The notes beneath the pieces were generated by a model. That model was not told the origin of the DNA. It ran no database searches and worked only from the letters and a program-made list of their open reading frames with translations. A stretch of 32,218 bases of DNA from a virus, in the IMG/VR virus record IMGVR_UViG_3300024264_000112, positions 1 to 32,218 of that record. The stretch is one strand, 5' to 3'. Both the position numbers and the translations under genes were made by a program. Positions 3,885 through 32,218 of the stretch are shown in pieces (positions within the stretch are counted from its first letter, which is position 1; each line of letters starts with the position of its first letter).

Positions 3885-6800
3885 TTAAATTAGTCTTCTA
3901 AATTTAAACACGTAGTCAGAGTTTCCTGTACATGTTGCTGAATGAGCAATTTGTAACTTTAAATCATCTGTATCTGCTGTAGCAGTACGTTTAGTTCTTA
4001 AATAAATATTCTTATTACTGGAAGCATGACCGGCTTTGTGTAATATAATTTCATCAGTATCATTACTGTTTGTATCTCCGCTATACCAAGTCATTGTACC
4101 TGAATAAGTTTCATACCAATGTCCTCCACCTACTGCATTGTCATGTGTATAGACTGATACTACGTATGTACCGGTTGCTAGATCTGTTCCATTAATACCT
4201 GTATCTTGCCAGTTAGTAGTAAGAGTCATTGACTTAGTAGTCGTATATAGCTGATCTATATCCGTACCCGATGTCATTGTCAATCCTGTATGTTCTACGT
4301 TTCCTTGAACATTTAAAGAACCGGTAAAGTCATGGTTATCGTCTGATGTGTCCCCAAATTTTGTTGAACCTGAGTCATATAGTATTGTGGTTGTGGTTAA
4401 CTCTGTTCTAATTTCCTGTGCTGTTAATGTACCTGATACTGTTAAATCACCTGTAATGCTTGTATTTTTATCTATACTAACACTTGTTTGTGCGTGTAGT
4501 TCAAGGTTACCGGTAGTATGACTATACCCTACCCATGCTGCATTATTTGCAGCGGCATCGCCAAACATATAGTAAGCATCAGCTGTACTTGATTGCTGTA
4601 CTATTGACCTAGTAGTTCCTTTGACATGTAAAAATGTGGTCGCATCGTAAGGTGTACCTGTTGTACCTGGTCCTAGAGTAACTCGGTTTGCAAATGTAGC
4701 TAAATTTGAAGCATCTAATACTAAGGTATCTGTCATAGTACCTCCTTCTGACGACCAAGAACTACCGTACCCAAATTTTAATTGACCATTGACACCCTGT
4801 ATCATACCGGGTTTATTTGCTCCTGCAGAGTCTTGATTTCCTATAAGTATATGTTGTGCAGTTCCTGTCTCTGTAACTCTTAATGCTCCAGCAAATTCTC
4901 CATGATTATTAGCTACTACTTTACCGCTAACTTCTACTACTCCATTTCCGCTTTGTGGGATTAAATGTATATTACCGCCGCTTGCAGCTGTATTAATTTC
5001 AAATTTTAACGTACTATTTCTTTGTCCTATCCATGCATAATCACTTCCTACTAAATCTCCATTAGAACCGTCAAAGTATATACCAGCATGTCCAGTTCCT
5101 GAGTTACGAAGTGCCATGTTAGAATCTTCACTTGATGTATTCTTAATATCTAATTTATAACCAGGACTTGTGCTCCCAATACCTACATTTCCACCACTTA
5201 GTATAGTCATTCTTTGGTTCCAAGAACCTGTATATGTCCAGAATCCTGCTCCTCCTCCTGATAATGAGTCTAGTGCAAATTGTGGAGTGTTTCCTTTACC
5301 CCACCACATTGAAGCTGCTGAAGAATCTCCTGCATCTAAGTATAATGTTCTTGCTCCTGTTGCTTTAATAACTGCTTGAAATTGTGTTCCGTTTGGTGTT
5401 CCGTCTCCTCCTCCGATATCTAGTAAAGCACTAGGGCCACTAGTTCCGATTCCAACTCTACCTCCAAATGGACTTAAAGCTACATTCCAATTTGCCGTAC
5501 CCGGACCATTTGTTGTCTGTAGACCTATTGTATCACCGTTATTCATTGAAGCAAAGCTCAAAGAAGTTGAATTACTATCGTGAGGTTTTAACCTTAAAAC
5601 AGCGTTGCTTATTACTTCTGCTTTAGTAGTTGCATTTCCTGTTCCTACAGGACCAAAATAACCTCTTCCTGCTACTTGGAGTTTACCGAGAGTAGGTGAT
5701 GTTGTTCCAATTCCAACGTTACCTGTTGATTCAAGACGCATTCCTTCAAAATAACTACTTCCATCATGACCTTTAAAAAGCAAATTACCTACAGCAGTTA
5801 TACCACTATTAGTATTAACAAAAAACTCGCCTCCATTTGAATAAACGCTACCATTTACTTGTAGTTTTTGAACAGGACTAGTCGTACCTATCCCGACGTT
5901 ACCGCCTGAAAGTATTGTAATGTCTTCAGAACCTGCTACTGTACCAGCGCCACCAAGAGTAAACTTCATCGCACCATCTCTGTCCATTATAATGCTAGAC
6001 TTCCAGTAATTTGTGTTTGCAGTATTTCTAGTTTGAAAAGCAATTCCAGCTCCTGTTTGTGTTGAGTTTTGACTTGTACCACTGATAAGGAGTAAACCTC
6101 CTGCTTTATGGTAAGCACTATTACCAACCCAACCGTCACCAATTTGAACAGCTACATTGTTTGCAGGTGAATCAGTAGAAACTTGTAGTTTTGTACTAGG
6201 TCCCGTATCTCCAATACCTACGTTTCCGGCGTTAGTGATACTCATTTTAAGATTACTAGCTGAACCTCCACCTACATAGAAGTTCATCTTACTCGTATCT
6301 AAATTTAAGAACCCTGTATTGCCAGAATTAACCATTATCATATCTACGTAACCAGTAGAACTTTCTAATTTAGCTACTGTATTAGCTCCTTTAACATGGA
6401 GCGCAGAAGAAGGACTTGTAGTTCCTATCCCTACGTAAGAATTTGCATAAAGGTTTCCTGTGTATATATTTCTCCAAGCATTAGTTGCACTAAATCCTAG
6501 ATCCATTGAATTATGTGCAGCAGGGTATACTTTACCGTTGAGGTCTAGGTTAAGTATTTGATTACCTCCGGCAAATAATTTTAAGTTATTACCTGTTGCT
6601 TTTAAGTCATCTGTTAATTGTATACCTCCAATTACTTCTAATTTTTCTGCAGCAAGAGATGTACCTATACCTACGTTTCCTCCATTTCTAATATAGATCC
6701 TATCTATATTATTTGTTCTTATTGCGAAAGCATGGCTTGAATACATACCGACACTTCCTTTATTACCATCTACACCTATTCTCTCTTGGTATTCTATAAT

Positions 6801-9800
6801 GGTACCATCGTTATTATAATCTGCATAAGTCCTGTTAAGGAAGAACCCTGAGTAGTTTCTATTTGTTTGGAAAGCACCTGATGTAGTATTATACTCTATG
6901 TCTAAAGCATTTCGTGAATCAGGAGTTCTACCTATACCTACTTCACCAGTTTCTAAGACCTTAAATAAATCTCCACCGGCGTTATTTTTTGATACAATAA
7001 ATGCTCTGTCAGTAGAGTCATTATTTGCATCCATGTCTATTCTAAAAGATCCATTTGATTTCAACCATCCACCACCGGAATATCCATTAAATGCTACTTT
7101 ACCATCTTGTTGAAACTCTGCTACTACTCCTGCTCCTCCGGACTTTTTAGTATTAATCTGTAATTTATCTGTTGATGCATGATTGTATATATCCCAAACC
7201 ATTGATCCTGCTTTTGCAAAAACTAGATTTGTATCGTCGCTACTTCCTGCACTATCTAGAATTACTTCTGCCCATGTATTAGAATTAGCTAAAGTAGTAT
7301 TCTGAACGAACCTAGTAGCTAATATAGTCCCATTAACATCTAGTAATTGACTTGGAACAGTAGTACCAATCCCGAACTTACCATTCTGAAGAAGGGTAGT
7401 TTTTGTAGAGTATGTAGTACCGTTATATGTACCGAATGTTAATTTACCGTTAGCATGATTAGGGTAGTAAACTGAATGTTCGTAACTTCCTACGCCCATA
7501 TCTGTTCCTAATCCCATCCAAGCGTTAGCGTCTGCATCTAAACCGTAAGTCTGTATTCTTGGTCCTCCGTAATATGCTCCTCCTATCATTAAAGCAGGTG
7601 CCGCTATACTTGTTTTATTAACTACAAGCCTATAAGTAGGCGCAGTCGTACCAATTCCGACGTTGCCTGCAGAAGTGATACGCATTCTTTCTGTATTGGA
7701 AGTATAAGCAACAAAACTTGTTGCATTAGCCCCAATTCTAACGTGGTAATCACTTGTACTTCCTGTTCCATTAAATCCAAGCGTGGATAGGGAGCCTCCT
7801 GCTCTGGTAATTGATCCTACTACTTCATCGTTTGTTGACGTAGCATTGAAAGTTCTGCCTGTTCCATAAACTCGTAAAAGACCATTTGGACTAGTAGTTC
7901 CGATCCCGACGTTGCCGTTTACTAACGACATAGTGTCTAACGGGGTGCCATCTACTCGGTTTCTAAAGAAAAACCCGGAAGTTGCAGTATCCCATTTATG
8001 ATCAAAATATAAATTACCATTATTATTTTCGTATCTTATTTTTGCGCCAGCTATACCAGTTGGTCCAGCGTCATCAATAAAGAAAATTTCAGGATTATAA
8101 TTTGAAGTAGCACCATTTAACCAAAGATTTCCGTCTTTAATTTCTAACTTAGCACCTGGACTAGTCGTCCCAATACCAACGTTACCTGAGGAGTTAATAC
8201 GCATTCTTTCAGAGCCGTTAGTGTAAAATCTCGTTACTCCGTGTGTAAAATTTGTATTATTCTTATTGGTTTGACCAATAGTGAGTAATCCAGCGCCTAA
8301 GCCTGTAGTACCTGGGTCGTAATTAAACTCAACTTGTTTATCCCAATCCCAACTAGCTCCTAATACAATAGATGTATTATTGTTGTTACCAATCATCCAA
8401 AGATGTCCATCACCGTATCCAAGTAGGTCAAAATTGTGAAGTCTTACTTTTTCGTATGTTTGGGTAAGTCTAGCTACTACATCACCATCGTTAGCAGCTC
8501 CTATTTCTAATTTGACACCAGGACTAGTTGTCCCGATCCCGACGTTACCTACTGAATCAATCCTAACAGCTTCTCCATTAGTTACGTTTCCAAAAGCAAT
8601 TTGCCTTGCTGTTTCTGCTCTAACATTAAATACTCCTGAGTTATTAAATATTTTACCAACAGGTGTTTCTCCCGTACCAACTCCCCAGCCTGCTGTTGAG
8701 TAACCTTCACCTGTTACGTAGATACCTGCGCTTGTTGTTTTGAGTTTTAATGAATTATCGTAGTATAACTGTACAGGCCCATTTGGGCTTGCATTTATCA
8801 TCGACTCATTACTAGAGGTGTTTAATCTGAGTACATTTGCTGTTTTGATATACAGATCACCAGTTAGGTTCTCAATATAAGAGCTCCCTGGAGTGTGAAA
8901 TATACGCATATCGTTGCCCGTACCAAACTGCAATTGCACAGTGTCGTTAAACTTTGTATTACCAGTCATCGTCCCACCAGCTAGTGGTAGGTATGTATTG
9001 CTTGCTGCTGTAGAGGTTAAGAACGAACTTAAGTCTTGGTCACCGGTATTAGTTCCTGATAGATTACTAATATCTATTTTATCTTGTGCAGATAATCCAT
9101 GGTTACCCCAGCCGAATGCTGTATTCCAATTTGCAGAGTTATCGGTAAATGGTAGAACATAATTATTTGCATTACTTGCTCCTGTATACCCTAAATTTGC
9201 TAAAGTTAATACTCTATTAGTATAAGCTGTTATAACACCATCTGTTAATGCTATTGTAGAAAGTACATTTGCTCCAGAAAAATTTAAATCTGTGTCAGTA
9301 CCAATTACTCTATTAACAGTTCCAGTTAAATACCCTTCAGTTGAATGATCTCCCCATCCATATGCCGTATCCCAATTTGCATTATTATACCCTGTAGCGG
9401 TAATATTACCTAATACCTTTAATGACCCTGTAAATTGATGTAAATCGTCAGAGCTGTCTCCAAACTTAGTAGATCCTGAGTCAAATAATATTGAAGCTGA
9501 TACAATTTCAGTATTAAATTGTTGTGCAGTTAATGTACCTGTTACAGTTAAATTGCCGGTTAATGTATCTGTCGTGTTCTGTAGATACGATGATGTAGAC
9601 GCATTAAGTGACGTTATGTTACTAGTATTTAAATCAACTTTAGTATTAGTAGCATTGCTAGCTGATGTAAAAGAACCAGATATTTTAGCAGCTGTTAAGC
9701 TTTTTACTAGGCTTAAAGAAGTAACTTCAGAATCCATTAATGCACCCAGTGCAGTTACTTGTGCTGAGGATGATACTATATTATTAGGTATATTATCTAG

Positions 9801-17250: not shown

Positions 17251-18816
17251 TTATATCGTCGCTAAGTCAGAGATAAAGATTTTTCCATAAAATTCTGGTC
17301 TAATCATTTTCTTCGCGTAACGAGTCATGATACCTTTTCTTGGAGTGAAGGTAGCAGGATCGTATACTAGAGGAGTCATGATTAATGGTACATATGGAGC
17401 ATATACAGCACCACTTTCTAAGAACTGTCCACCTCTAAATCCAGTTAGGATTGTGTTTTCAGTCATGTAAGGGTTCTTATATACTTTAAATCTACCGTTA
17501 AGTTGTCCAACTTTTTGAACACCCATTGCAAATTCAGCCTGATCTCCATCAGTTTGTGCAGCATATCCTGGAATTGATTCTAAGATAGTAGCTACAGAAG
17601 GAGAACATACTAGGAAGTTTGCTCCACCTCTTAAGGTTTTCTGGTGAATTTTGTTAGATACTTTTTGGATTTTAGTTCCTAAAGTTTGGAACCATTGTCC
17701 TTGAGTATTGTAGAAGTCAGAACTTGAGCTTTCCCAAGCTGTTCCATTCCATACTTTGTTGTTCTCTGCAGACCATCTTTCAGTAGTTCTAGCACCACCA
17801 ATTAACATGTCTAAGATTTCAAGATCAATTTCCATTGAAATGTACTCACTCAATAAAGAAGTAAGTTCAGCTTCAGCATCAATTGAATGATAAGCATTAA
17901 GATCCTGAGCGAACTCTGGTGTCCATTGTGCTTTCAATTTTCTTGTTTTAGCAACAACTGATTCAGATTTCAACTCTACGTTGATTTCTGGAATGTTGAT
18001 TGATCCAGCAGGAGCGTCTTCAAAGTCTCCTCTTGTGTTATCAGCAGGTTGTACGTGGTATTGCATTGCACCTGTGATAGATACTGCAGCAGTTGCAGAT
18101 TTAGCTACTACGAAGTTTACATTTCCTCCACCTAAGAACGTAAGTTCTGGGTTAGTAGTAATATCTGTTGAACCAGATAGTAATCTAAATGCTCTTACAC
18201 CTTCTGCGTCAGCACCTGATGGTAATCCGATAGCTACTGTAAAGTAGTCAGCAATTGCAACATCGTTGTCAAATGCAACTGATGCAGAAGCAGCAGATCC
18301 AGTTGCAGCAGCTGATACAGCTAATGAACTAGTTGCGATAGAGTATCCGAATGCACCAGCACCGTATAAACCACCAGCAGCATCAACATCTACTCCTAAT
18401 TTGTTAACTCCAGATGCATTTCCATACATGCTAGCGTCAGCAGCTCTACCGTTTCCAGCAGTTCCGTATTTAAAGTCTAAGTAAAATACTAGACCTGAAG
18501 GTAAGTTCATTGGTTGAACCGAGACGAAATCTTTAGATGAGATTTGAGCGAATACCTTTCTTACTAAAGGTAAAGCAACTCCTGCCCATTGTTCTGATCC
18601 ACCACCGGCTGCTCCGATTGCGCTTCCTCCTGTAGATGATTGCTCAGCTACGATTTGTTTTGCTTGATTTTCTAACATGATTGCCATGTTATTAGATGTT
18701 TTAGCATCTAAACCTTCAAGCAATCCTGATGCTCCCCACTTGTCTGCAAGTTTAGCAGCATCGTCTTGCAAGGCTTTGTAGCCATTTGCACTTTCTAATA
18801 AAGAATTAATTTCCAT
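17251..18816 (-). CDS. 23: Major capsid protein, gp23-like, 521 aa
   Basis: This is a T4-type major capsid protein (HK97 fold), with the same length as T4 gp23 (521 aa). Matching blocks are FVSVQPMNLPSGLVFYLDF (gp23 has VQPMNSPTGQVF), KTRKLKAQWTPEFAQDLNAY and HSIDAEAELTSLLSEYISME (gp23 has QLKAAYSIELAQDL and MDADAELSGIL), and YAPYVPLIMTPLVYDPATF near the C-terminus. The first ~58 residues are helical and should be removed by the prohead protease: IVAE (55-58) stands where gp23 is cut, followed by a Gly/Ser-rich linker. The gene follows the scaffold gene after 32 nt and ends before a strong terminator, so scaffold and capsid form one unit. A gp24-like vertex paralogue is not in the window. Confidence 0.95.
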   Translation of the reverse strand: MEINSLLESANGYKALQDDAAKLADKWGASGLLEGLDAKTSNNMAIMLENQAKQIVAEQSSTGGSAIGAAGGGSEQWAGVALPLVRKVFAQISSKDFVSVQPMNLPSGLVFYLDFKYGTAGNGRAADASMYGNASGVNKLGVDVDAAGGLYGAGAFGYSIATSSLAVSAAATGSAASASVAFDNDVAIADYFTVAIGLPSGADAEGVRAFRLLSGSTDITTNPELTFLGGGNVNFVVAKSATAAVSITGAMQYHVQPADNTRGDFEDAPAGSINIPEINVELKSESVVAKTRKLKAQWTPEFAQDLNAYHSIDAEAELTSLLSEYISMEIDLEILDMLIGGARTTERWSAENNKVWNGTAWESSSSDFYNTQGQWFQTLGTKIQKVSNKIHQKTLRGGANFLVCSPSVATILESIPGYAAQTDGDQAEFAMGVQKVGQLNGRFKVYKNPYMTENTILTGFRGGQFLESGAVYAPYVPLIMTPLVYDPATFTPRKGIMTRYAKKMIRPEFYGKIFISDLATI

Positions 18817-20023: not shown

Positions 20024-20581
20024 TTATGAGACTAAGTCTTCTACAGCTCCTTTAATAAGAGTGCTGACTTCTGCTCCTTTAATTAATGCTTTGGCGCTAT
20101 ATGCTGCTGCTGTAGCCCATTTTGTCTGTTTTAATAGCTGTACTGCTGAGCCTCCTGCTGATCCTGCCATACCGAATATGATTATAGAGTATAGTATCTT
20201 AGTTATACCTTTCTTCTTTGCTTCATCTTTAGTAAAAATTCCAACTATACGTTTGATAGGTGCCATAAATGCATCTTCATTTTTATGAGTGAAATTATAC
20301 CACCATTCAGCATTATCCATCATTCCAGGTTTGTTATATTTTTTAGCAAGCCATTTAAACATCTTAGCCAGCATATTTGCTACTGTGTTAGATAGTAGTA
20401 CATATCCTATTATACCTACAATAGCTGCTTCGTTTACCTGTCCTTCTTTGGATTCTATGTCTTCTTTATTAGCTTCAAGTTCTTTTTCAACTGCTTGTGC
20501 TAGCTTCGTAGCCATTGCTGCCATTCCCGGTTCAACAGCATTTTCTTCTTTATTTTCGAATAGTATATTTTGAAGTTTCAT
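20024..20581 (-). CDS. Hypothetical head-module protein with two hydrophobic segments, 185 aa
   Basis: Located between the protease and scaffold genes and joined to the protease gene by a TAATG overlap. The N-terminus is MKLQNILFENKEENAVEPG, followed by a helical stretch (about 20-48). Two hydrophobic segments follow: residues 52-75 (AAIVGIIGYVLLSNTVAN) and 127-151 (ITKILYSIIIFGMAGSAGGS). The C-terminal third is Ala/Lys-rich and helical. T4 encodes small core proteins near this site (gp67, gp68), but the hydrophobic segments are unlike them. It could be an internal head protein, a prohead initiator anchoring at the membrane, or a protein delivered with the DNA. The LFE at residues 7-9 could be a protease cut site. 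No family recognised. Confidence 0.68.
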   Translation of the reverse strand: MKLQNILFENKEENAVEPGMAAMATKLAQAVEKELEANKEDIESKEGQVNEAAIVGIIGYVLLSNTVANMLAKMFKWLAKKYNKPGMMDNAEWWYNFTHKNEDAFMAPIKRIVGIFTKDEAKKKGITKILYSIIIFGMAGSAGGSAVQLLKQTKWATAAAYSAKALIKGAEVSTLIKGAVEDLVS

Positions 20582-21159
20582 TAAGCTCTTAGTATATCGT
20601 TGATAATAGAATCTAATCCGCTATATTTGTTTAGTTTCTGTTTACCTTCTTGTAAAGATATTGGATTCATAAACGCACCATGTGTAGATGGATTAGAAAC
20701 AAAGTCCCAACATACTAATTCAAAGTCTGGTTGAACTTCTAAAGTACCTTCATTAGTTTGAGTAACTGAACCTGTACCTCTGGATGAAATCCCTATTGTA
20801 TGTCCTGCTTTTATAATCTCTTTTACAATGTTTCCGGCTGGTGTGTTTAGTAGTTCTACACGTCCCATAAGATCGTTTCCTTTCCACCATAACTCTTTTA
20901 CTATATGAGAGGCGTTCTTTAAGGAGACAATGGGAGATTCAGGGTGATCAAGTTCTCCGAATGCATTACCATTCTTTACAAACTCTTCTATATACTTTGA
21001 TGATTCTCTTTCTAATATAGCTTTACTATAAGTACGGCCATTTTGATTTTTTGCGATTGCTCTTTGCATTACGCCTTCCACTTCATATACTCCAGGTTTC
21101 TCTTTTGATTCCCTTAATATAGATTTAAATGGTGTTACTTCTATTAATAGTTGTGCCAT
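20581..21159 (-). CDS. 21: Prohead core protease, gp21-like, 192 aa
   Basis: A serine protease of the T4 gp21 (U9/S78-like prohead protease) family. NGRTYSKAILERE at about 40-52 is the conserved 'N-x-R-x-Y' entry; FGELDHPES carries the catalytic His (H72); and GHTIGISSRGTGSV carries the catalytic Ser (S125 or S126) about 53 residues later, as in the family. Length is close to T4 gp21 (212 aa). It should trim the capsid protein and digest scaffold and core proteins once the prohead is complete. It begins 4 nt after the 775-aa gene and its stop overlaps the next start, so expression is probably coupled. The ILRES near residue 14 could be a self-processing site. Confidence 0.92.
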   Translation of the reverse strand: MAQLLIEVTPFKSILRESKEKPGVYEVEGVMQRAIAKNQNGRTYSKAILERESSKYIEEFVKNGNAFGELDHPESPIVSLKNASHIVKELWWKGNDLMGRVELLNTPAGNIVKEIIKAGHTIGISSRGTGSVTQTNEGTLEVQPDFELVCWDFVSNPSTHGAFMNPISLQEGKQKLNKYSGLDSIINDILRA

Positions 21160-24574: not shown

Positions 24575-26464
24575 TTAGTCCTCTAAATCTTTAAGTTGAT
24601 TTTCATCTAATAGCTTAGAAGGGGTTTCTTTTGTGGATTCAAATATCATTTCCTTACTGTTTTCGAATGAATCTTTAATTTGATGATATATAGTTTGTGC
24701 TTTATTTGTATTTAATTCTGCAACATTTTCATTATCTGATTCGAAACCTCCATGCATTCCATGTACTCCTAATCTATCTCTTCCGCCCATAGGGTCTGCA
24801 TTAGTTCCGTAAATTGATGCTTTTTCTTTCGGTCTTCCACCTTCAGGTCCTATTTCGTTATAACCTGGTGGTACTGATCCAGGTCCTCCGCCTTTTTCTG
24901 TTGATGTTGCTCTTCTACCGTACATAGAAGCTAAATCATGTGGTGTACCGTAAGATCTTCCTGATTTAGCAGGATCATTTCCTTCTGCTTCTACTTGTGC
25001 TATTCTAAATGCTCGTTTAGCATCCTCTCTTACAAGCTCTCTCATTTCATTATATTGATCCTCAGATAAATTAAATATGTGGTCATATATGTAATCAGTA
25101 GAGAACATTTTAGAGTCTTTCATTTGATTAGCTAAATCAATCTTCTCTTTAAGAAGTGCTACTTTTTCTTGTTCGTATACTACTGATGGGTTCGTTAACT
25201 TGATTTCAAAGTTTGTTAAGCTTTCTCCTGTAAATCCTTGAGTATATAAATGTACTAAGGCAATTTTTGTTAATTCAGATTCTACTATCTTTTGTATTCT
25301 TTCAACTGTTCTAGCAAATCTTATATCTTCTGCTGCTAAAGTAGCTTTACCACTTAAATCTCCTTCATATCCAAAATATGCTTTAGGTATCTTTAAAGCA
25401 GCAAACATTTTAGCCTGTAAGTACTGTATATCATTAGTACCATCGTAGTCTAATCCTTTAGTAGTTTCTATTCTAGTAGAAGCATCTCCTCCTCTTACCG
25501 GTACGTAGAAATCCTCCATCATGTTCTGCATGTTAAACTTCAAGTTATATTGTCCTGTTTTTGGATCAACATAAGGAGTTTTTTTCATTCCATTAACAGT
25601 CTTTTGCATAAACTGATCAACTTCTGCTGGAGGTATAGAACCAACATTAACAAAGAAAGTACGTTTTTCTGGAGCTCTCATTATACGGTGAATTAACATC
25701 GCATCTTCCATTAACGTAAGTTGTTTAAATATTTTTCTAGCTGGTTCAATAAAAGATCTACCGTAAGGTAAGTAAGCATGATCTGATATTAATCTAAAGT
25801 GTGCTACTTCGTAATTGTCTAAGACTACAGCTTTAGAATCTCTTTTTGGTATATATGTAGGGTCTTGAGAAGAAGCAAGCCCATCTGGGTCGATTGTAAA
25901 TTGTACTTCTGCAGGTTTAGCTGGATCAGCTCCTTCGTGTCTACTCATATTATAAACCGTATAAGGTAGTACGTTATAGACTCCGAATTTTTCTGCTACT
26001 TCTAATTTTAAAAAGTAATCTCCATGCTTACACATTCCTCTAACCCATGACCATAAATTAAATTCAATATTTAATACATCATAAAAAAGGTTATATAATA
26101 CTCTTTGTAAGTTTTCGTCTGAAGATTTAATTGAAAGTACTTCCCCCATATCGTTTTTAAGCGTAGCTTCATCTGCTAATATATCTAATGCTGAAGCTAT
26201 TATAGGGTCTGTATCCATTGCTTCGTAATCAGAGTATAACTGTATACGAAGGGATTGGTAATTAAGGTTAGGATTAAATAGATTTTTGTTATTGTATATA
26301 TGTAATCTTGAGAACCTATCCACTAAAGAATTAGTTTCAAAATTACCAGTTGTCTGTATTTTATTAATATCAGCTACCTTTAGTTCGGTTCCGCCGATGT
26401 TTCTAATTATTACATCTGATGAGAAGAGTCTCTGTAGTCTTGGAAATAATGATTTATCTGCCAT
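24575..26464 (-). CDS. 20: Portal vertex protein, gp20-like, 629 aa
   Basis: T4-type portal protein, the dodecameric ring through which DNA enters and leaves the head. Supporting segments include DYEAMDTDPIIASALDILAD near residue 75, MEDAMLIHRIMRAPEKRTFF at about 250-270 (the gp20 'R-x-x-R-A-P-E-R-R-x-F' region), the following PPAEVDQFMQ, VPVRGGDASTRIETTKG, and DIQYLQAKMFAALKIPKAYF, all typical of the family. T4 gp20 is 524 aa; the extra ~100 residues are a Gly/Pro-rich, low-complexity C-terminus ending in an acidic helix. It follows the terminase gene after 42 nt, with a TATTTATA motif between. The start has no clear Shine-Dalgarno sequence. Confidence 0.94.
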   Translation of the reverse strand: MADKSLFPRLQRLFSSDVIIRNIGGTELKVADINKIQTTGNFETNSLVDRFSRLHIYNNKNLFNPNLNYQSLRIQLYSDYEAMDTDPIIASALDILADEATLKNDMGEVLSIKSSDENLQRVLYNLFYDVLNIEFNLWSWVRGMCKHGDYFLKLEVAEKFGVYNVLPYTVYNMSRHEGADPAKPAEVQFTIDPDGLASSQDPTYIPKRDSKAVVLDNYEVAHFRLISDHAYLPYGRSFIEPARKIFKQLTLMEDAMLIHRIMRAPEKRTFFVNVGSIPPAEVDQFMQKTVNGMKKTPYVDPKTGQYNLKFNMQNMMEDFYVPVRGGDASTRIETTKGLDYDGTNDIQYLQAKMFAALKIPKAYFGYEGDLSGKATLAAEDIRFARTVERIQKIVESELTKIALVHLYTQGFTGESLTNFEIKLTNPSVVYEQEKVALLKEKIDLANQMKDSKMFSTDYIYDHIFNLSEDQYNEMRELVREDAKRAFRIAQVEAEGNDPAKSGRSYGTPHDLASMYGRRATSTEKGGGPGSVPPGYNEIGPEGGRPKEKASIYGTNADPMGGRDRLGVHGMHGGFESDNENVAELNTNKAQTIYHQIKDSFENSKEMIFESTKETPSKLLDENQLKDLED

Positions 26465-26506: not shown

Positions 26507-28081
26507 TTATAATAACCAAGATATATCTTCTTGTTCACCGAAGCCATTATCTATAAGATAAGGATTATTTTGTTGGGAACCAACTGATCTCATGATTCCT
26601 TTATTTTGAAGGTTTAAGTTTTGAAATGAGGATAACTGTGCTCTTGCTAAGTCCATTCCTTGTTGACGTAACCTTAAAGCAGTATCCCTTACGTATAGTG
26701 CCGTTGCGCATGCTATCAGTAAATCATCATTATATCCTACTTGTGCTTGAGGTTTACCGTTTTTCCATACAAATACTCTCATTTCACCTATTAACCTCTT
26801 TGATTGTATTGTAACTCCTCTTTCTCTAATATATTCAATCATCTTAGCTATTACTAATGGTCTGGTTCTAACTGACATTGTAAAACCTGGTACTAGTTTA
26901 TCTCTTTCAAATTTAGTCATATAGGACTCTACTGTTTCCATTTGAGATGTAGAGCTGTAATATATGTTGCTATACTGTCGTTCCATTATCTGTTCTATAG
27001 TAGCCCATCCTATATTTGCATTTTCTACTACTAAAAGTGCTTGATTGTATTCTGTTGCAATACCTACTAATACGTTACCGTAATCTTTTGGGGATAGCTT
27101 ACCTTTATACTCTCCTACCTGTGTTGCTGTTTCTACATCAAATATATGGAAGGCGGAATAATCAGCTGAGTCTCCTCTAGCTACATCGGCTACAACCATA
27201 TATGATTTTGTATAATCAACTCCTTCCCATATCCAAAGGTTAGTATCTACTCCTCTTTTTTCAAGAGGTTCTTTAAGGTATGTTTGTTCGTAAAACATCA
27301 TATCATCTGGTTCGAATACTGTATCTCCAGATGCTAAGAAGTCACAATCACATTCCTGTCCTGCCATTCTAGGACCTAAGTCTCTATCTTGTTGGTCTCT
27401 CCATTCTTGATCTCTCTCAGGGTGAACTGTCCAAGGTAACCTTATAGGTAGAAATGAATTTTCTCCTGATTCAGCTTTATCCCAAGTTTTGTGGAACCAG
27501 TTTCCAATTCCGTTAGGAGTTGATAGTGCCATACACTGTCCACCAGTTGCTAAGGTTTGTTGTGCAGCTGTAAACGTTTCTTCAATGTTATCAATAAAGG
27601 CGGCCTCATCAATAAGTAATAAGGATACTGCTTCGGATCTTGCTGCGTCCGCATTAGATGATTTAGCTGTAATTTTTGATCCATTCTTTAATCTTAAGGA
27701 TAATTTATTTTTTTCTAGTGCTGGTAGTTTTAACCATTTTGGAAGCTGGTCGTACATAAACATAGTTTTAGAAACTAAGTTACGTGCAGTTGCTTGAGTT
27801 GTTGCTAAAGCTAGTACGTTCTTATCTTTATGAAACAACATTAACCATAATGAGTAACCTGCAGCTAGAGTTGATATACCTAGCTGTCTAGATTTTAAAG
27901 TAATAAGAAATTGATTATCTCTAAATAAATGTAATACTTTACCTTGAAAAGGGTAAAGGTTAAATAGTATTCGACCTCTAGTAGGATGCTGTATGTAACA
28001 GTATTTCCTCATGAAGTACTCTGGATCTTTAGCACACTTGATGTACTCTTGTGCTATGATCTTTTTTATGTCTTTTGCCAT
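26507..28081 (-). CDS. 17: Terminase large subunit, gp17-like, 524 aa
   Basis: The DNA-packaging motor: an N-terminal ATPase and a C-terminal RNase H-like nuclease. Walker A is SRQLGIST (64-71), as in T4 (SRQLGKT-type, with the unusual early Arg). Walker B is LLLIDEAAF (154-162), and the coupling segment is MALSTPNG (184-191). In the nuclease, VADVARGDSADYSAFHIF gives D299, VVENANIGW gives E353 and GYNDDLLIA gives D452/D453, the three acid positions expected. The protein is shorter than T4 gp17 (610 aa), mainly at the N-terminus. The gene begins 2 nt after the stop of the 399-aa gene and precedes the portal gene. No small terminase (gp16) is recognised nearby. Confidence 0.96.
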   Translation of the reverse strand: MAKDIKKIIAQEYIKCAKDPEYFMRKYCYIQHPTRGRILFNLYPFQGKVLHLFRDNQFLITLKSRQLGISTLAAGYSLWLMLFHKDKNVLALATTQATARNLVSKTMFMYDQLPKWLKLPALEKNKLSLRLKNGSKITAKSSNADAARSEAVSLLLIDEAAFIDNIEETFTAAQQTLATGGQCMALSTPNGIGNWFHKTWDKAESGENSFLPIRLPWTVHPERDQEWRDQQDRDLGPRMAGQECDCDFLASGDTVFEPDDMMFYEQTYLKEPLEKRGVDTNLWIWEGVDYTKSYMVVADVARGDSADYSAFHIFDVETATQVGEYKGKLSPKDYGNVLVGIATEYNQALLVVENANIGWATIEQIMERQYSNIYYSSTSQMETVESYMTKFERDKLVPGFTMSVRTRPLVIAKMIEYIRERGVTIQSKRLIGEMRVFVWKNGKPQAQVGYNDDLLIACATALYVRDTALRLRQQGMDLARAQLSSFQNLNLQNKGIMRSVGSQQNNPYLIDNGFGEQEDISWLL

Positions 28082-28083
28082 AA

Positions 28084-29283
28084 CTACTTTGCTTTGTAAT
28101 CACACATTATATGTGATGGGTACAATTTGCCTTGTTTATTTCTGATATTGATTTTAAACCTATACTTCTCAGATTCAAAAACAATGTCTATTCTTTTACC
28201 AATACCTGTTTTACCGCCGTATTGTATCTCTATACCGGATATAGGTTCTGATGCTTGTTTATTATATTCATCACCAACGAAGAAAAATTCAGTCTTCTTA
28301 CCTCCTTTTAACATGAAGTACCCTGTACCTATACCGCTTTCAACTAAATTAAATAGTTTTTCTTTATCGTAATCATTAGTGGCTTTGTGGTATTCTGTAA
28401 AGTTGGTACCTGTCTTATCTTCTCTATACTCGTTAAAAACTCTACAGAATAATTCATTATCAATTCCAAAGGTCTCTAGTAATGCCACTCCGTCTGGTGT
28501 ATCTATTTTACCGTCTAGAAAATCATCTTTTGGGAAAACATTGACTGCTACTCCTGCATTAAAAAATGTTAAAGTCCCACCGTACTTCAAAGAAAGGTAT
28601 ATTCTCTCTGCCCCTTTAATTATAGTTAAATCTGTTAACGTAGCAGCTATATTCTCTCCTGTAAAACCTACTATTGGGCCTTTATCTGTAAAGTTTAAAG
28701 GTCTTCTTTTATTCTCACCGCCTTCATTTTTAACATTAAAGTTAGTAGTGTTTAATGAAAATTCTTCTATAATAGATTTAGTTAGTTCTGAATGTATATA
28801 TTCTTCTATACCATCTTTGAAGTTATTTAAATCTTGAGCAATTTCTTCTTCAAATTTTAATCCTTTACTATTTGCTCCTCTACCTCCTCTTGAACCTTCT
28901 CCAAAACTTATAGAAAGACCATTCCATTTAATGAATTCATTAACGTCTTCTATTTCAATACCTAACCCTTTTTCTAAGTGTGTTATAAACTCTCTATTGG
29001 TTTTTAAACTCCTTGTTATTTTAGGGCTATTTTTCTTATTAGGATCTAATGCTATTGGATCATCTATTTTTAATCCAGGGAATGCTTTTACTATTTTAAA
29101 AAGCTCTTGTATTTTAGGGTTACTAATTTGATCTGGTGAGGTTGGGAATTCTGTATAAGCTTCGTTAAGATTGAAACCGAACATTGATTCAAACAAAGCC
29201 ATATCCTCTTGATTGTTAATGTCAGGATATCCTTTTTTGGTCTTATAGGACCATTCTAATAAAACTTTATCTATAAGATTCAT
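28084..29283 (-). CDS. Unknown protein, possible degenerate PD-(D/E)XK nuclease fold, 399 aa
   Basis: N-terminal part (1-125) is helical and starts MNLIDKVLLEWSYKTKKGY. A Gly-rich loop (SFGEGSRGGRGANSKG, 126-141) precedes KFEEEIAQDLNN (143-154). Then TDLTIIKGAERIYLSLKYG places D218 and S231-L-K233, followed by a FFNAGVAVNVF strand. Acid in a helix, then D, 12 residues, x-x-K is the layout of PD-(D/E)XK nucleases such as Hjc, but Ser stands where Glu or Asp is usual. So it could be a divergent nuclease, an inactive relative used structurally, or a chance pattern. The gene ends 2 nt before terminase, a site where many phages keep nucleases that aid packaging. No firm family assignment. Confidence 0.6.
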   Translation of the reverse strand: MNLIDKVLLEWSYKTKKGYPDINNQEDMALFESMFGFNLNEAYTEFPTSPDQISNPKIQELFKIVKAFPGLKIDDPIALDPNKKNSPKITRSLKTNREFITHLEKGLGIEIEDVNEFIKWNGLSISFGEGSRGGRGANSKGLKFEEEIAQDLNNFKDGIEEYIHSELTKSIIEEFSLNTTNFNVKNEGGENKRRPLNFTDKGPIVGFTGENIAATLTDLTIIKGAERIYLSLKYGGTLTFFNAGVAVNVFPKDDFLDGKIDTPDGVALLETFGIDNELFCRVFNEYREDKTGTNFTEYHKATNDYDKEKLFNLVESGIGTGYFMLKGGKKTEFFFVGDEYNKQASEPISGIEIQYGGKTGIGKRIDIVFESEKYRFKINIRNKQGKLYPSHIMCDYKAK

Positions 29284-29289
29284 ATTTGG

Positions 29290-30474
29290 TTATGCTTCTG
29301 GTTCTTCTGCTGGTTCTTCAAAGTCAACTGGTTCGTCTGTTAGATCAGCTCCTCCACCTTCTTCTCCGGATTCTTCTCCTCCTAAATCTGCAGGTAGGTC
29401 TCCATCATCTCCTCCTGTGGCTCCACCCTCTTCTCCGGGGAAGTCTCCGCCTCCGCCTCCTGATGAACCGCTATCTACGTCTGCTGCATCTCCATCACCA
29501 GCTCCTTTCATAGGACCTTCTTTGTATAGGATTGCCAACTTATCTAAGGCTTGTTGATAGTCATCTATCTTATCTATATAGTACCTTTTACCCATTATTT
29601 GTGCTTCAAAGCCTGTTCCTGTCCATTTGAGAATATAGTCTTGTCCGTTTTTAATGTTAACTCTAAACTCTGTAGGTCTGGGAGATATCCAGTCTATGCT
29701 ATCTATAAATTCTTTAAATTCTTCTGTCTGAAGTTTGATTAAAGTTGCTTTAAGTGTTGGGAATTTTGCTAGTATAGTATCTGTAGCGTCTTCTAAAACA
29801 GTTTCTTTAGGAGCTTCCTTATCACCTTCTTCTTCGGGTTTAGGTTCTTCGTCTACCTCATCTAATAGAGACTCTTTAACTATATCTAATTTATCAAAAA
29901 CTCCTTTTTTGCCTTTTACAGTAAAAAAATCTTGTTTATGACTATCTGTAAATTCAGACTCTATTTCATGTTCTTCTCCTTTACCGTTTTTGTCTCTTAG
30001 TTTAACTAAATCTCCAACTGCTTCTTCCATACTACGTCTCATTTTCATGAGTTCATATTGATCAGGTCTTTCGTTTCTAAGGTAACTTTGAAGTTTTCTA
30101 AAATTAGTTTTAATTAGTTCGAATAATTCTCTAGCTCTTTTATCAGTCCTAACGTCTTGATTGTTCATTAGTCCTTTTATATCTCCTACTATATCAGAAA
30201 AGTTTGTATATAAACCTTCAAAGGAAGGTAAAGAGATAGGTTTATGTCCTATCTGTCCTGTATTTTTATCTACTGAATAGGTTTTAAAGTATGTTTTCAT
30301 ATCAGAAGATACAAAATCTTTATCAGGCCACTTAGAAACACCGTACCTTTTTTCAATACTAGCTCTAAAAGACTTTGGTAGTTCTTCTAAGCCTAAAGTA
30401 CCTCTAGTTTCCTCTTCTTCTTTCAGGATTAGTTCTGCGTAAGATTCTAATATAAGTTTTTCTAATTTATGCAT
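29290..30474 (-). CDS. Unknown structural-type protein with acidic Gly-rich tail, 394 aa
   Basis: Starts MHKLEKLILESYAELILKEE, a short amphipathic leader with an ILE that could be a protease cut site. Residues 20-170 are charged and helical (LFELIKTNFRKLQSYLRNER, MRRSMEEAVGDLVKLRDK). About 205-235 is Glu/Pro-rich. A compact alpha/beta part follows (about 240-320: ISPRPTEFRVNIKNGQDYIL, KWTGTGFEAQIMGKRYYIDK). The last ~72 residues are almost only Gly, Asp, Glu, Ser, Ala and Pro. The gene lies between two other unknown genes with gaps of 3 and 6 nt, in the operon leading to terminase. An internal head or core-associated role is possible. I do not recognise a family. Confidence 0.66.
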   Translation of the reverse strand: MHKLEKLILESYAELILKEEEETRGTLGLEELPKSFRASIEKRYGVSKWPDKDFVSSDMKTYFKTYSVDKNTGQIGHKPISLPSFEGLYTNFSDIVGDIKGLMNNQDVRTDKRARELFELIKTNFRKLQSYLRNERPDQYELMKMRRSMEEAVGDLVKLRDKNGKGEEHEIESEFTDSHKQDFFTVKGKKGVFDKLDIVKESLLDEVDEEPKPEEEGDKEAPKETVLEDATDTILAKFPTLKATLIKLQTEEFKEFIDSIDWISPRPTEFRVNIKNGQDYILKWTGTGFEAQIMGKRYYIDKIDDYQQALDKLAILYKEGPMKGAGDGDAADVDSGSSGGGGGDFPGEEGGATGGDDGDLPADLGGEESGEEGGGADLTDEPVDFEEPAEEPEA

Positions 30475-30477
30475 AGC

Positions 30478-32218
30478 TTACTTCTTTTTCTTTTTGTACC
30501 CTTTATGCCAGTGTTCGTTAGTAGTTTTAATATCTAATTCACTAACAGGAATATCTTCTACTGTTTTTCCGTTTTCAAATAAAACATCATAATGAGTTAC
30601 TACGTATTTTTTTCCTTCTTTAACTAAGGTATGTTTTTCTGGAATACAGTTTCCTTTACCGTATGTTTCATGTACTACTTTAGCAGCACAATCGTGAGCA
30701 AATCCAGGACCTGATTCATCTAAATCAGCATCTAATTCAAACTTCTTAAATCTATCTACGTCGTTGATATTTTTAATATGAACTCTTTTGCCGTCTTTAT
30801 CTAAACCGTATACTTTAGAACCATCATTTCCAGTTTTCTTAAGTTCTGCTTTAGCTCTACGTTTAGATACTGAGGAAGACATTCCTAAATCTTGTCTAGT
30901 AGCTTCACTAACTCTTTTACCTAGTCCCGGTAAGTTTCTTAAGTCTTGTACGTACTCATCTGTTTTAACTAGAATAGTACCTAATACTTCTTTTTCTTCT
31001 TTATCACGTCTATCTGCTGCTTTCTTAGTAATCTTAAATAATGTAATTTTAGATACTGCAGGATTAAAGTCTGGGTCTCTATCTTTAAAGTTACTGTTGT
31101 AGTATTGTGTTTGATGCATTCTATAGTCTTCACCTTCATGCTCTAATTCATGGTATTGAACGTGAACAAACATTGGTGCATACTGTTTCATTCTAGCTTT
31201 GATGCCACTCGCATCATGTTTCTTTAAAGCTTCAATTGCATCGTTTTCACTTGCTACACCTTTAGGAAGTAAGTCGGCAAATATCTGCTTACCAAACATA
31301 TCAGGCCCTCTTTTATTAGCATCGTCGATTAGTTCTGAACCTTTAAATGAATTATCCGTAAATTCTTTTAATGTTTTTTTAGATTCAGCTAAAATAGATT
31401 TGAATACGTCAATAGAAACTTTTCTTTTCTTTCCTTTATGTTCATACTCTACAAAATCCTTTGAGCCTGGTTTTTTAATATAGTCGGTTATTTTTACATC
31501 TACAGGTACTTTTTGATTCTTAACTACATTGTATTTTTTTATAGCTACTACTTTACCAATCTTCATTGATAAGTCTTCATTTACTCCATCAAAATCTCTC
31601 TGTTTTAAAGCTGCCATAATAGCATAAACAGCATCTTGCTCTTCATAGCCGTACCTCTTAGCCATTGCTTTAATGAATTGAGCTACTTTTTTAGATACTT
31701 CTGGGTTAAGGCTTTCATTAGTAGATTCGTTATACTCATCGTCATCATCATCGCCGTAATAGAATCCTAAGTTTTCTTGCTCTTCTTTTGAGTACTCATT
31801 AGATATCTTTTGTCTGAATTCTGAAATGCTTCCGATCCATTCCATTAAAGCTTCTACAGCTCCAGGATTATCTTCTATAAATTCATCAAAACCTTGTCTG
31901 TATCCTAATGCTCCAAATATTTCATCTAAGTCTCTAGAAGCGGATCCTCCGTATTCTTTAACTACTTTTTCTGTTTCTTCTAACTCATTATTTAAATAGT
32001 CATCTTCTTCTCGTCTGTAATCTTCATAATCTGTTTGATCACTACCTTTTGCTCCATCTAGTAAATCTCCTAGCTTAGCATCATTTTCCATTTCTGGGTT
32101 ATGTAAAGTAACAGCATTAGGGTGAGTGTCTCCTCTACCTACATGTAATTCATAATCTTCTTCTGAGTAGTTAGCTTTTAAATAATCAACTACGTACTGT
32201 ATTTCATCTAAGTCAAAT
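30478..32218 (-). CDS. Unknown charged protein, 5' end beyond the right edge (at least 579 aa)
   Basis: The frame stays open upstream of the Met at 32091 to the window edge (visible codons translate as DLDEIQYVVDYLKANYSEED, then YELHVGRGDTHPNAVTLHNP), so 32091 is probably an internal Met and the true start is outside. The visible part is acidic at first (a DDDDDEYNEST run), then basic. Segments of note: KKVAQFIKAMAKRYGYEEQD, FVHVQYHELEHEGEDYRMHQ (His/Glu-rich; not a clear HExxH), and GFAHDCAAKVVHETYGKGNC followed by HYDVLFENGKTVEDIPVSEL near the end. The C-terminus is a poly-Lys tail (GYKKKKK). It is followed after 3 nt by the 394-aa gene. Function unknown; a structural or internal head protein is inferred from context. 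Confidence 0.68.
   Translation of the reverse strand, partial: FDLDEIQYVVDYLKANYSEEDYELHVGRGDTHPNAVTLHNPEMENDAKLGDLLDGAKGSDQTDYEDYRREEDDYLNNELEETEKVVKEYGGSASRDLDEIFGALGYRQGFDEFIEDNPGAVEALMEWIGSISEFRQKISNEYSKEEQENLGFYYGDDDDDEYNESTNESLNPEVSKKVAQFIKAMAKRYGYEEQDAVYAIMAALKQRDFDGVNEDLSMKIGKVVAIKKYNVVKNQKVPVDVKITDYIKKPGSKDFVEYEHKGKKRKVSIDVFKSILAESKKTLKEFTDNSFKGSELIDDANKRGPDMFGKQIFADLLPKGVASENDAIEALKKHDASGIKARMKQYAPMFVHVQYHELEHEGEDYRMHQTQYYNSNFKDRDPDFNPAVSKITLFKITKKAADRRDKEEKEVLGTILVKTDEYVQDLRNLPGLGKRVSEATRQDLGMSSSVSKRRAKAELKKTGNDGSKVYGLDKDGKRVHIKNINDVDRFKKFELDADLDESGPGFAHDCAAKVVHETYGKGNCIPEKHTLVKEGKKYVVTHYDVLFENGKTVEDIPVSELDIKTTNEHWHKGYKKKKK

Follow-up and report, generated by a model that had tools for sequence, protein, structure and literature searches.

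Does the gene that abuts the terminase large-subunit gene (terL) of this virus encode a nuclease and, if so, what is the nuclease for? The stretch analysed (IMG/VR record IMGVR_UViG_3300024264_000112, positions 1 to 32,218; hereafter the window, 32,218 nucleotides) carries the gene on the minus strand, where it starts with ATG, is separated from terL by 2 nt and stands in a structural gene block of T4-like type that also includes the portal and prohead protease genes. Its product falls in phrog_8438, a PHROGs family of unknown function, and gave no Pfam family at E<=1. The original prediction had read it as a candidate nuclease of the PD-(D/E)XK type in which Ser takes the place of the usual acid, possibly a terminase-linked aid to packaging. 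The features used below are as follows.

28084-29283, minus strand: whole gene, leader plus nuclease-like cargo (399 aa; phrog_8438, E 4.7e-68)
29161-29283, minus strand: residues 1-41, leader, candidate capsid-targeting propeptide, ending LNE/A (common to unrelated cargo; junction; pLDDT)
28087-29160, minus strand: residues 42-399, cargo, HinP1I-like nuclease model (conservation and model)
28861-28902, minus strand: residues 128-141, Gly-rich loop preceding the core (G128 and G141 conserved)
28849-28851, minus strand: E145, helix acid (invariant, 33/33)
28630-28632, minus strand: D218, directly before strand 219-223 (invariant, 33/33; DSSP)
28585-28593, minus strand: S231-L232-K233, in strand 226-234 (S231 and K233 invariant, 33/33; DSSP)
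26507-28081, minus strand: terL, directly downstream of the nuclease gene (PF03237, 1.3e-10; phrog_2)
29290-30474, minus strand: upstream neighbour, 394 aa, with its own leader-like N-terminus (blastp to nuclease-fused proteins)
20581-21159, minus strand: prohead protease, gp21 type, Peptidase_S77, candidate processing enzyme (PF03420, 5.4e-36; phrog_207)
24575-26464, minus strand: portal protein, gp20 type (PF07230, 3e-68)
17251-18816: gp23, assigned by position and length, with no profile

The residues on which the nuclease reading was founded (E145-E146-E147, D218 and S231-L232-K233, a spacer of 12 residues separating D218 from S231) are present in the translation, as is the Gly-rich stretch ahead of the fold. 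E145, D218, S231 and K233 are invariant in all 33 rows of the alignment used for modelling and in 11/11 rows of a second alignment, in which the seven rows from the phage collection share no more than 28-33% identity with the window protein; G128 and G141 are conserved in both. The AlphaFold2 model of the protein (mean pLDDT 86.3, pTM 0.68) was poorly determined over residues 1-40 (block mean pLDDT 49-57) and mostly high over the remainder, and DSSP placed E145 in helix 143-156, D218 against strand 219-223 and S231 and K233 in strand 226-234. Ranking of Foldseek's candidates with VIA-align revealed that the best structural matches were the Type IIP PD-(D/E)XK restriction enzymes HinP1I (2fkc_A, Z 9.3, rmsd 4.7, 206 of 247 aligned, tied with the same enzyme in 1ynm, Z 8.5, rmsd 4.7, 192 of 241) and MspI (1sa3_A, Z 7.4, rmsd 4.4, 190 of 262), with Hjc (4tkd_B, Z 5.5, rmsd 3.9, 84 aligned) and HhaI (6uke_X, Z 5.2, rmsd 4.1, 150 aligned) lower. 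The predicted topology fits the PD-(D/E)XK fold, though the Foldseek E values are non-significant, no PDB match reaching E 0.001 (the best is Hjc, 0.057); the sequence profile found no PDB relative at E<=10. Three BFVD matches were significant, namely an S-CAM1 protein (8.4e-26), an unnamed entry and an uncultured-virus protein, while Pfam searches over the 33 relatives gave no family in more than two members, all weak, and PADLOC returned no match for the window protein. In the model, the order of the four residues and their positions on helix and strands agree with the PD-(D/E)XK superfamily, and we consider it very likely that the cargo has a nuclease fold. The structural comparison with Hjc and restriction enzymes supports this part of the original prediction. 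An HNH nuclease was rejected, as the protein has neither an HNH motif nor a corresponding Pfam match and its model resembles HinP1I instead.

D218 is the Asp before the second core strand and K233 the Lys on the next strand, as in PD-(D/E)XK enzymes, but the position two residues ahead of the Lys holds S231 in 33/33 rows in place of Asp or Glu, and because of this replacement the cargo is termed PD-(D/E)XK-like and is not assigned as a canonical member. Ser is a poor metal ligand. The motif of HinP1I is SD-X18-QXK and that of MspI is TD-X17-NXK; the corresponding motif of the window cargo is TD-X12-SXK. In PMC4081073 the MspI substitution is worded otherwise, with Asn listed as replacing Lys. 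Active enzymes with Gln at the acid position exist in the BisI family (PMC11347163), and the literature searched reports N or Q as substitutions, with no Ser precedent seen there. The bare loose D..[SE]xK pattern proves little alone, since 21-34% of shuffled cargo sequences contain it too.

Residues 1-41 form a separable leader. Five viral loci and a record of the Flavobacterium phage immuto match the window protein over only the first 35 to 67 residues, and their C-termini differ. A scan with the leader alignment gave 372 stretches, 314 of them confirmed; the best 80 of the 314 were combined with eight earlier loci into a set of 88 rows, which is redundant (L010 and L030 are one contig). Among the matches listed, terL lies downstream in 87/88 rows, the contig of the other (L021) ending first, and its start falls 3-17 nt past the gene's last base in 81/88 rows, 594-627 nt downstream in five and 1428 nt in one. 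Clustering on residues 46 onward (E<1e-10, coverage 0.6, L021 dropped) revealed ten cargo families behind the leader, comprising 87 proteins among the matches listed (25, 15, 14, 8, 5, 5, 5, 4, 4 and 2), while TerL in these listed rows is 73-100% alike to that of the window. Some cargo families are mosaics of common sub-parts; hhalign gave pairs above noise for families 2 and 8 (95.6%), 2 and 7 (91.8%), 1 and 7 (66.8%) and 1 and 3 (43.7%), and found no partner family above 2.1% for family 0, that of the window. For family 1 only 4 further relatives were found. The long leader occurred in 14/16 records searched, as a single match in 12 and with a second, marginal match inside the same ORF in two; being found once per genome, it is not common to several proteins of one phage. 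That the tag is kept and the cutter swapped suggests that the DNA-cutting enzyme packed into the particle differs from one such virus to another.

By eye, terL itself is interrupted in some relatives, by an intein-like ORF after the N-terminal half in L186 (11069-13102), by a gap of ~1.2 kb in L206 (3995-6769) and by a frame break in L131 (3424-4994). Small genes that some phages have between the nuclease and terL were considered as an immunity partner and rejected, as they appear by eye to be membrane- or spanin-like and are independent of cargo type. In a 484 kb uncultured phage (L101, LR756508.1), a leader-like N-terminus, ILLEWSYRVDKGYP, stands on a 358-aa acidic protein (5989-7065) with no evident nuclease, and a RecA/UvsX-like gene lies nearby.

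PMC9026906 gives L/I-x-E as the motif after which the T4 protease gp21 cleaves; in the IPIII leader, positions 4, 7, 8 and 10 are important for both targeting and processing. A site of this type and a gp21-type protease (20581-21159) are both encoded by the phage studied here. Since the sequences are related and the patterns were chosen after reading them, the leader-pattern figures are descriptive: among the matches listed, 65/73 unique leaders have [LI]xE in the 12-residue window at the junction, versus 685/8154 control cargo 12-mers (8%), a count that left out three proteins without an exact anchor; the eight leaders lacking it there all have V-x-E; E occupies position 41 in 53 of the 73; and hydrophobic residues at 4, 7 and 8 with E10, present in the window leader (MNLIDKVLLE), recur in 23/29 unique long-leader starts, E10 being missing from the other six, and in 7/7 short ones, versus 4/209 immuto ORFs, the gene at the nuclease position being one of the four. 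Of the immuto ORFs in the head region, 13/19 have [LI]xE within residues 5-20, versus 33/190 elsewhere (Fisher p 6e-6, likewise descriptive). One leader on unrelated mature proteins, the T4 arrangement, is seen across phages, and within a single genome for MIKL-type leaders only. Five ATG starts of record G018 fit the MIKL pattern and none did in the reversed control; they include the nuclease and three neighbouring proteins. The proteins carrying such leaders in G018 and L186 are probably a cluster of internal head proteins. These results make it fairly likely that the leader targets its protein to the head. In L186 (3104-6753), several nearby unrelated proteins upstream of terL were observed to begin with the same MIKL-type peptide.

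The cargo has a distribution of its own. The window protein matched 28 phage records. In 24, from cyanophages and two marine viruses, the match is confined to the cargo, beginning at residue 58 or later with 34-37% identity; in the remaining four, from Flavobacterium immuto phages, it is confined to residues 1-35. When viral contigs were scanned with an alignment, 508 confirmed relatives of the phrog_8438-type nuclease emerged, 80 of which were taken further. Some carry a variant long leader before the nuclease, while others have short leaders joined to it at the same point (MKTFKQFFREA/F, MKTFKQYFFES/Y, MIKLIDILYEA/F, MKSFKTFLNEG/F and MFTFKGYLAEM/Y) which, judged by sequence, look like T4-type capsid-targeting peptides. 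Untagged copies begin exactly at the junction (M-AYDFIP), and in one further group the nuclease is fused to a homologue of the upstream neighbour in the window, residues 197-372 of which are homologous to the N-terminal part of the nuclease-fused proteins of other phages (blastp E 3e-20 to L144, and similar). The cyanophage homologues lack the long leader and sit between mazG and a ligase-like KxDG gene, away from terL, and 19/44 relatives examined have no terL in the available flank, some flanks being short. A host restriction-modification enzyme was rejected, as a scan of a genome collection gave 87 pattern matches and 2 relatives only, both on marine alphaproteobacterial MAG contigs with a phage-like set of neighbours. 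Among cyanophage and pelagic relatives, a phrog_455-type protein with the ligase-like KxDG motif KWDGAP was seen to follow the nuclease in L184 (3327-4544), L178 (3074-4306) and the cyanophage loci L027, L102, L103, L105 and L107, and in some relatives it has a leader-like N-terminus of its own.

Of the ten cargo families, two gave models of PD-(D/E)XK-like type, and a further two match restriction-endonuclease profiles. Family 2 keeps E137, K188-A189-D190, S203 and K205 in 21/21 rows, and residues 126-353 of its model (pLDDT 85.0) align with HhaI (6uke_X, Z 6.0, rmsd 4.2, 149 aligned) and HinP1I (2fkc_A, Z 6.0, rmsd 4.1, 158 aligned); because these top rows tie with unrelated nucleotidyltransferase-like rows covering residues 49-129, the model is only supportive of a nuclease, and Foldseek returned nothing significant for it. 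Families 6 and 7 match the PADLOC profile REase_II (L099, E 2e-4; L075, E 1.5e-4), family 9 retains the usual E-x-K, and in the remaining families a motif was assigned by eye only. A generic D..[SE]xK motif was discarded as proof of ten nuclease families, being a post hoc pattern that shuffles reproduce at the rate given above. In one family-2 protein (L213, 2827-3945), residues 49-129 form a nucleotidyltransferase-like domain (Z near 5-6) ahead of the nuclease-like core.

We put at roughly 60% the probability that the locus is a polymorphic internal-head-protein system of a marine T4-like phage with a nuclease as its cargo. For such a system we infer that the 41-residue leader would direct the precursor into the prohead core, where the phage's own gp21-type protease would cut after L-x-E, most likely between E41 and A42. 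The freed HinP1I-like nuclease would then remain in the head, enter the host along with the DNA and cut DNA without the phage's base modification, be it chromosomal DNA of the host or mobile DNA, resident or competing. Phages would keep the leader and trade the cargo, much as happens at the T4 internal-protein locus. Injection of the enzyme to act against unmarked DNA is a more tentative part of this reading, to which we give somewhat less than even odds.

The packaging role raised by the original prediction fared less well. As proposed for terminase-adjacent HNH nucleases, the leader would bind TerL or the portal and the nuclease would trim or resolve branched DNA during packaging. This would account for terL being the next gene, 3-17 nt on, in 81/88 rows among the matches listed, and for the presence of Hjc, a junction resolvase, among the structural matches; however, ten cargo families (among the matches listed) are swapped while TerL stays 73-100% alike, the same nuclease stands at the mazG and ligase-like genes of cyanophages, and 19/44 relatives, some with short flanks, have no terL in reach. 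The leader moreover resembles a head-targeting propeptide, and T4-type targeting peptides substitute for it at the same junction, and we regard a packaging helper as very improbable. It is improbable, too, though less so, that the protein is a late nuclease acting in the cytoplasm, outside the head, on host or competitor DNA, with the leader as a regulatory or docking tail. Untagged homologues beside replication genes and the low pLDDT of the leader are consistent with that role, but the leader agrees with capsid-targeting sequences in position and residues, and neighbours upstream of terL have such leaders too.

A further possibility shares the head location with our preferred reading and differs in the activity of the cargo, which would be a DNA-binding or inhibitor protein derived from the PD-(D/E)XK fold, catalytically dead and injected against host defence as T4 Ip1-3 are. 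In its favour, Ser stands in place of the acid, and Ip1-3 share only their leader and inhibit GmrSD enzymes (PMC12373910). Against this, none of the E, D, S and K residues varies in the 33 rows, an equivalent set (E137, D190, S203 and K205) is invariant in the independent family-2 cargo (21/21), family 9 has the usual E-x-K, and the BisI-type enzymes noted above are active with Q at the acid position (PMC11347163), so that we judge a dead derivative unlikely.

How a phage carrying an active nuclease might protect its own DNA is suggested by immuto 2-6A (NC_055915.1), which is annotated at 18607-37015 with a 7-deazaguanine DNA-modification set, QueC, QueD, QueE, FolE, QueF and DpdA. Relatives of DpdA were found in 4/4 records that have the leader and are at least 156 kb long (immuto itself and three others, the latter at 76-79% identity), and in 0/7 partial ones. 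Pfam does not recognise DpdA of immuto and PHROGs lists it as unknown, and its name therefore rests on the record annotation. DNA bearing 7-deazaguanine resists restriction enzymes, as stated in PMC6884629, and the modification could protect the phage DNA from its own nuclease. Matches to DpdA among 50,697 phage records came from 4 immuto, 14 Campylobacter and 1 Weizmannia phages and from no cyanophage; because the cyanophage homologues have neither leader nor DpdA, self-protection of this kind is not general. More speculatively, virions might hold an inverted restriction-modification system, in which 7-deazaguanine would mark the phage DNA, each particle would inject a packed restriction-like nuclease attacking unmarked DNA, and cargo and target would be swapped in an arms race like the C-terminal domains of polymorphic toxins; we consider this doubtful.

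In comparison with HinP1I and MspI, the window protein has no detectable sequence similarity to either enzyme, carries Ser at the acid position, has extra N-terminal residues (42-125) as well as the leader, and is a phage gene not seen in a host restriction-modification pair. With T4 IPI-IPIII (Ip1-3), as described in PMC9026906 and PMC12373910, it shares a constant N-terminal leader, an L/I-x-E signature and unrelated, swapped cargo. It differs from them in the predicted nuclease fold of the cargo, that of T4 being a GmrSD inhibitor, in a main leader of 41 residues versus 10-20, and in a single fixed site beside terL. A targeting peptide has been used to put EcoRI or staphylococcal nuclease into engineered T4 heads for delivery (PMC9026906); that loading is man-made, whereas the arrangement in the window is apparently natural. 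The phrog_8438 protein of cyanophages, leaderless and placed as described above, belongs to the same family as the window cargo. The literature searched, which covered few subscription papers, did not describe any nuclease cargo that carries a leader tag naturally. T4 internal proteins are injected restriction inhibitors, and a natural locus delivering interchangeable restriction-like nucleases by the same route would reverse that; if true, it would also account for phrog_8438, a family with hundreds of uncultured relatives. The concrete predictions can be tested in one cultured pair, immuto and Flavobacterium sp. LMO8. Elsewhere in the window, C-terminal residues 465-530 of the product of 30478-32091 match phrog_22379; the C-terminal part of a cytidylyltransferase-like protein from a cyanophage (L104, 4858-6084) has a match to phrog_22379 as well.
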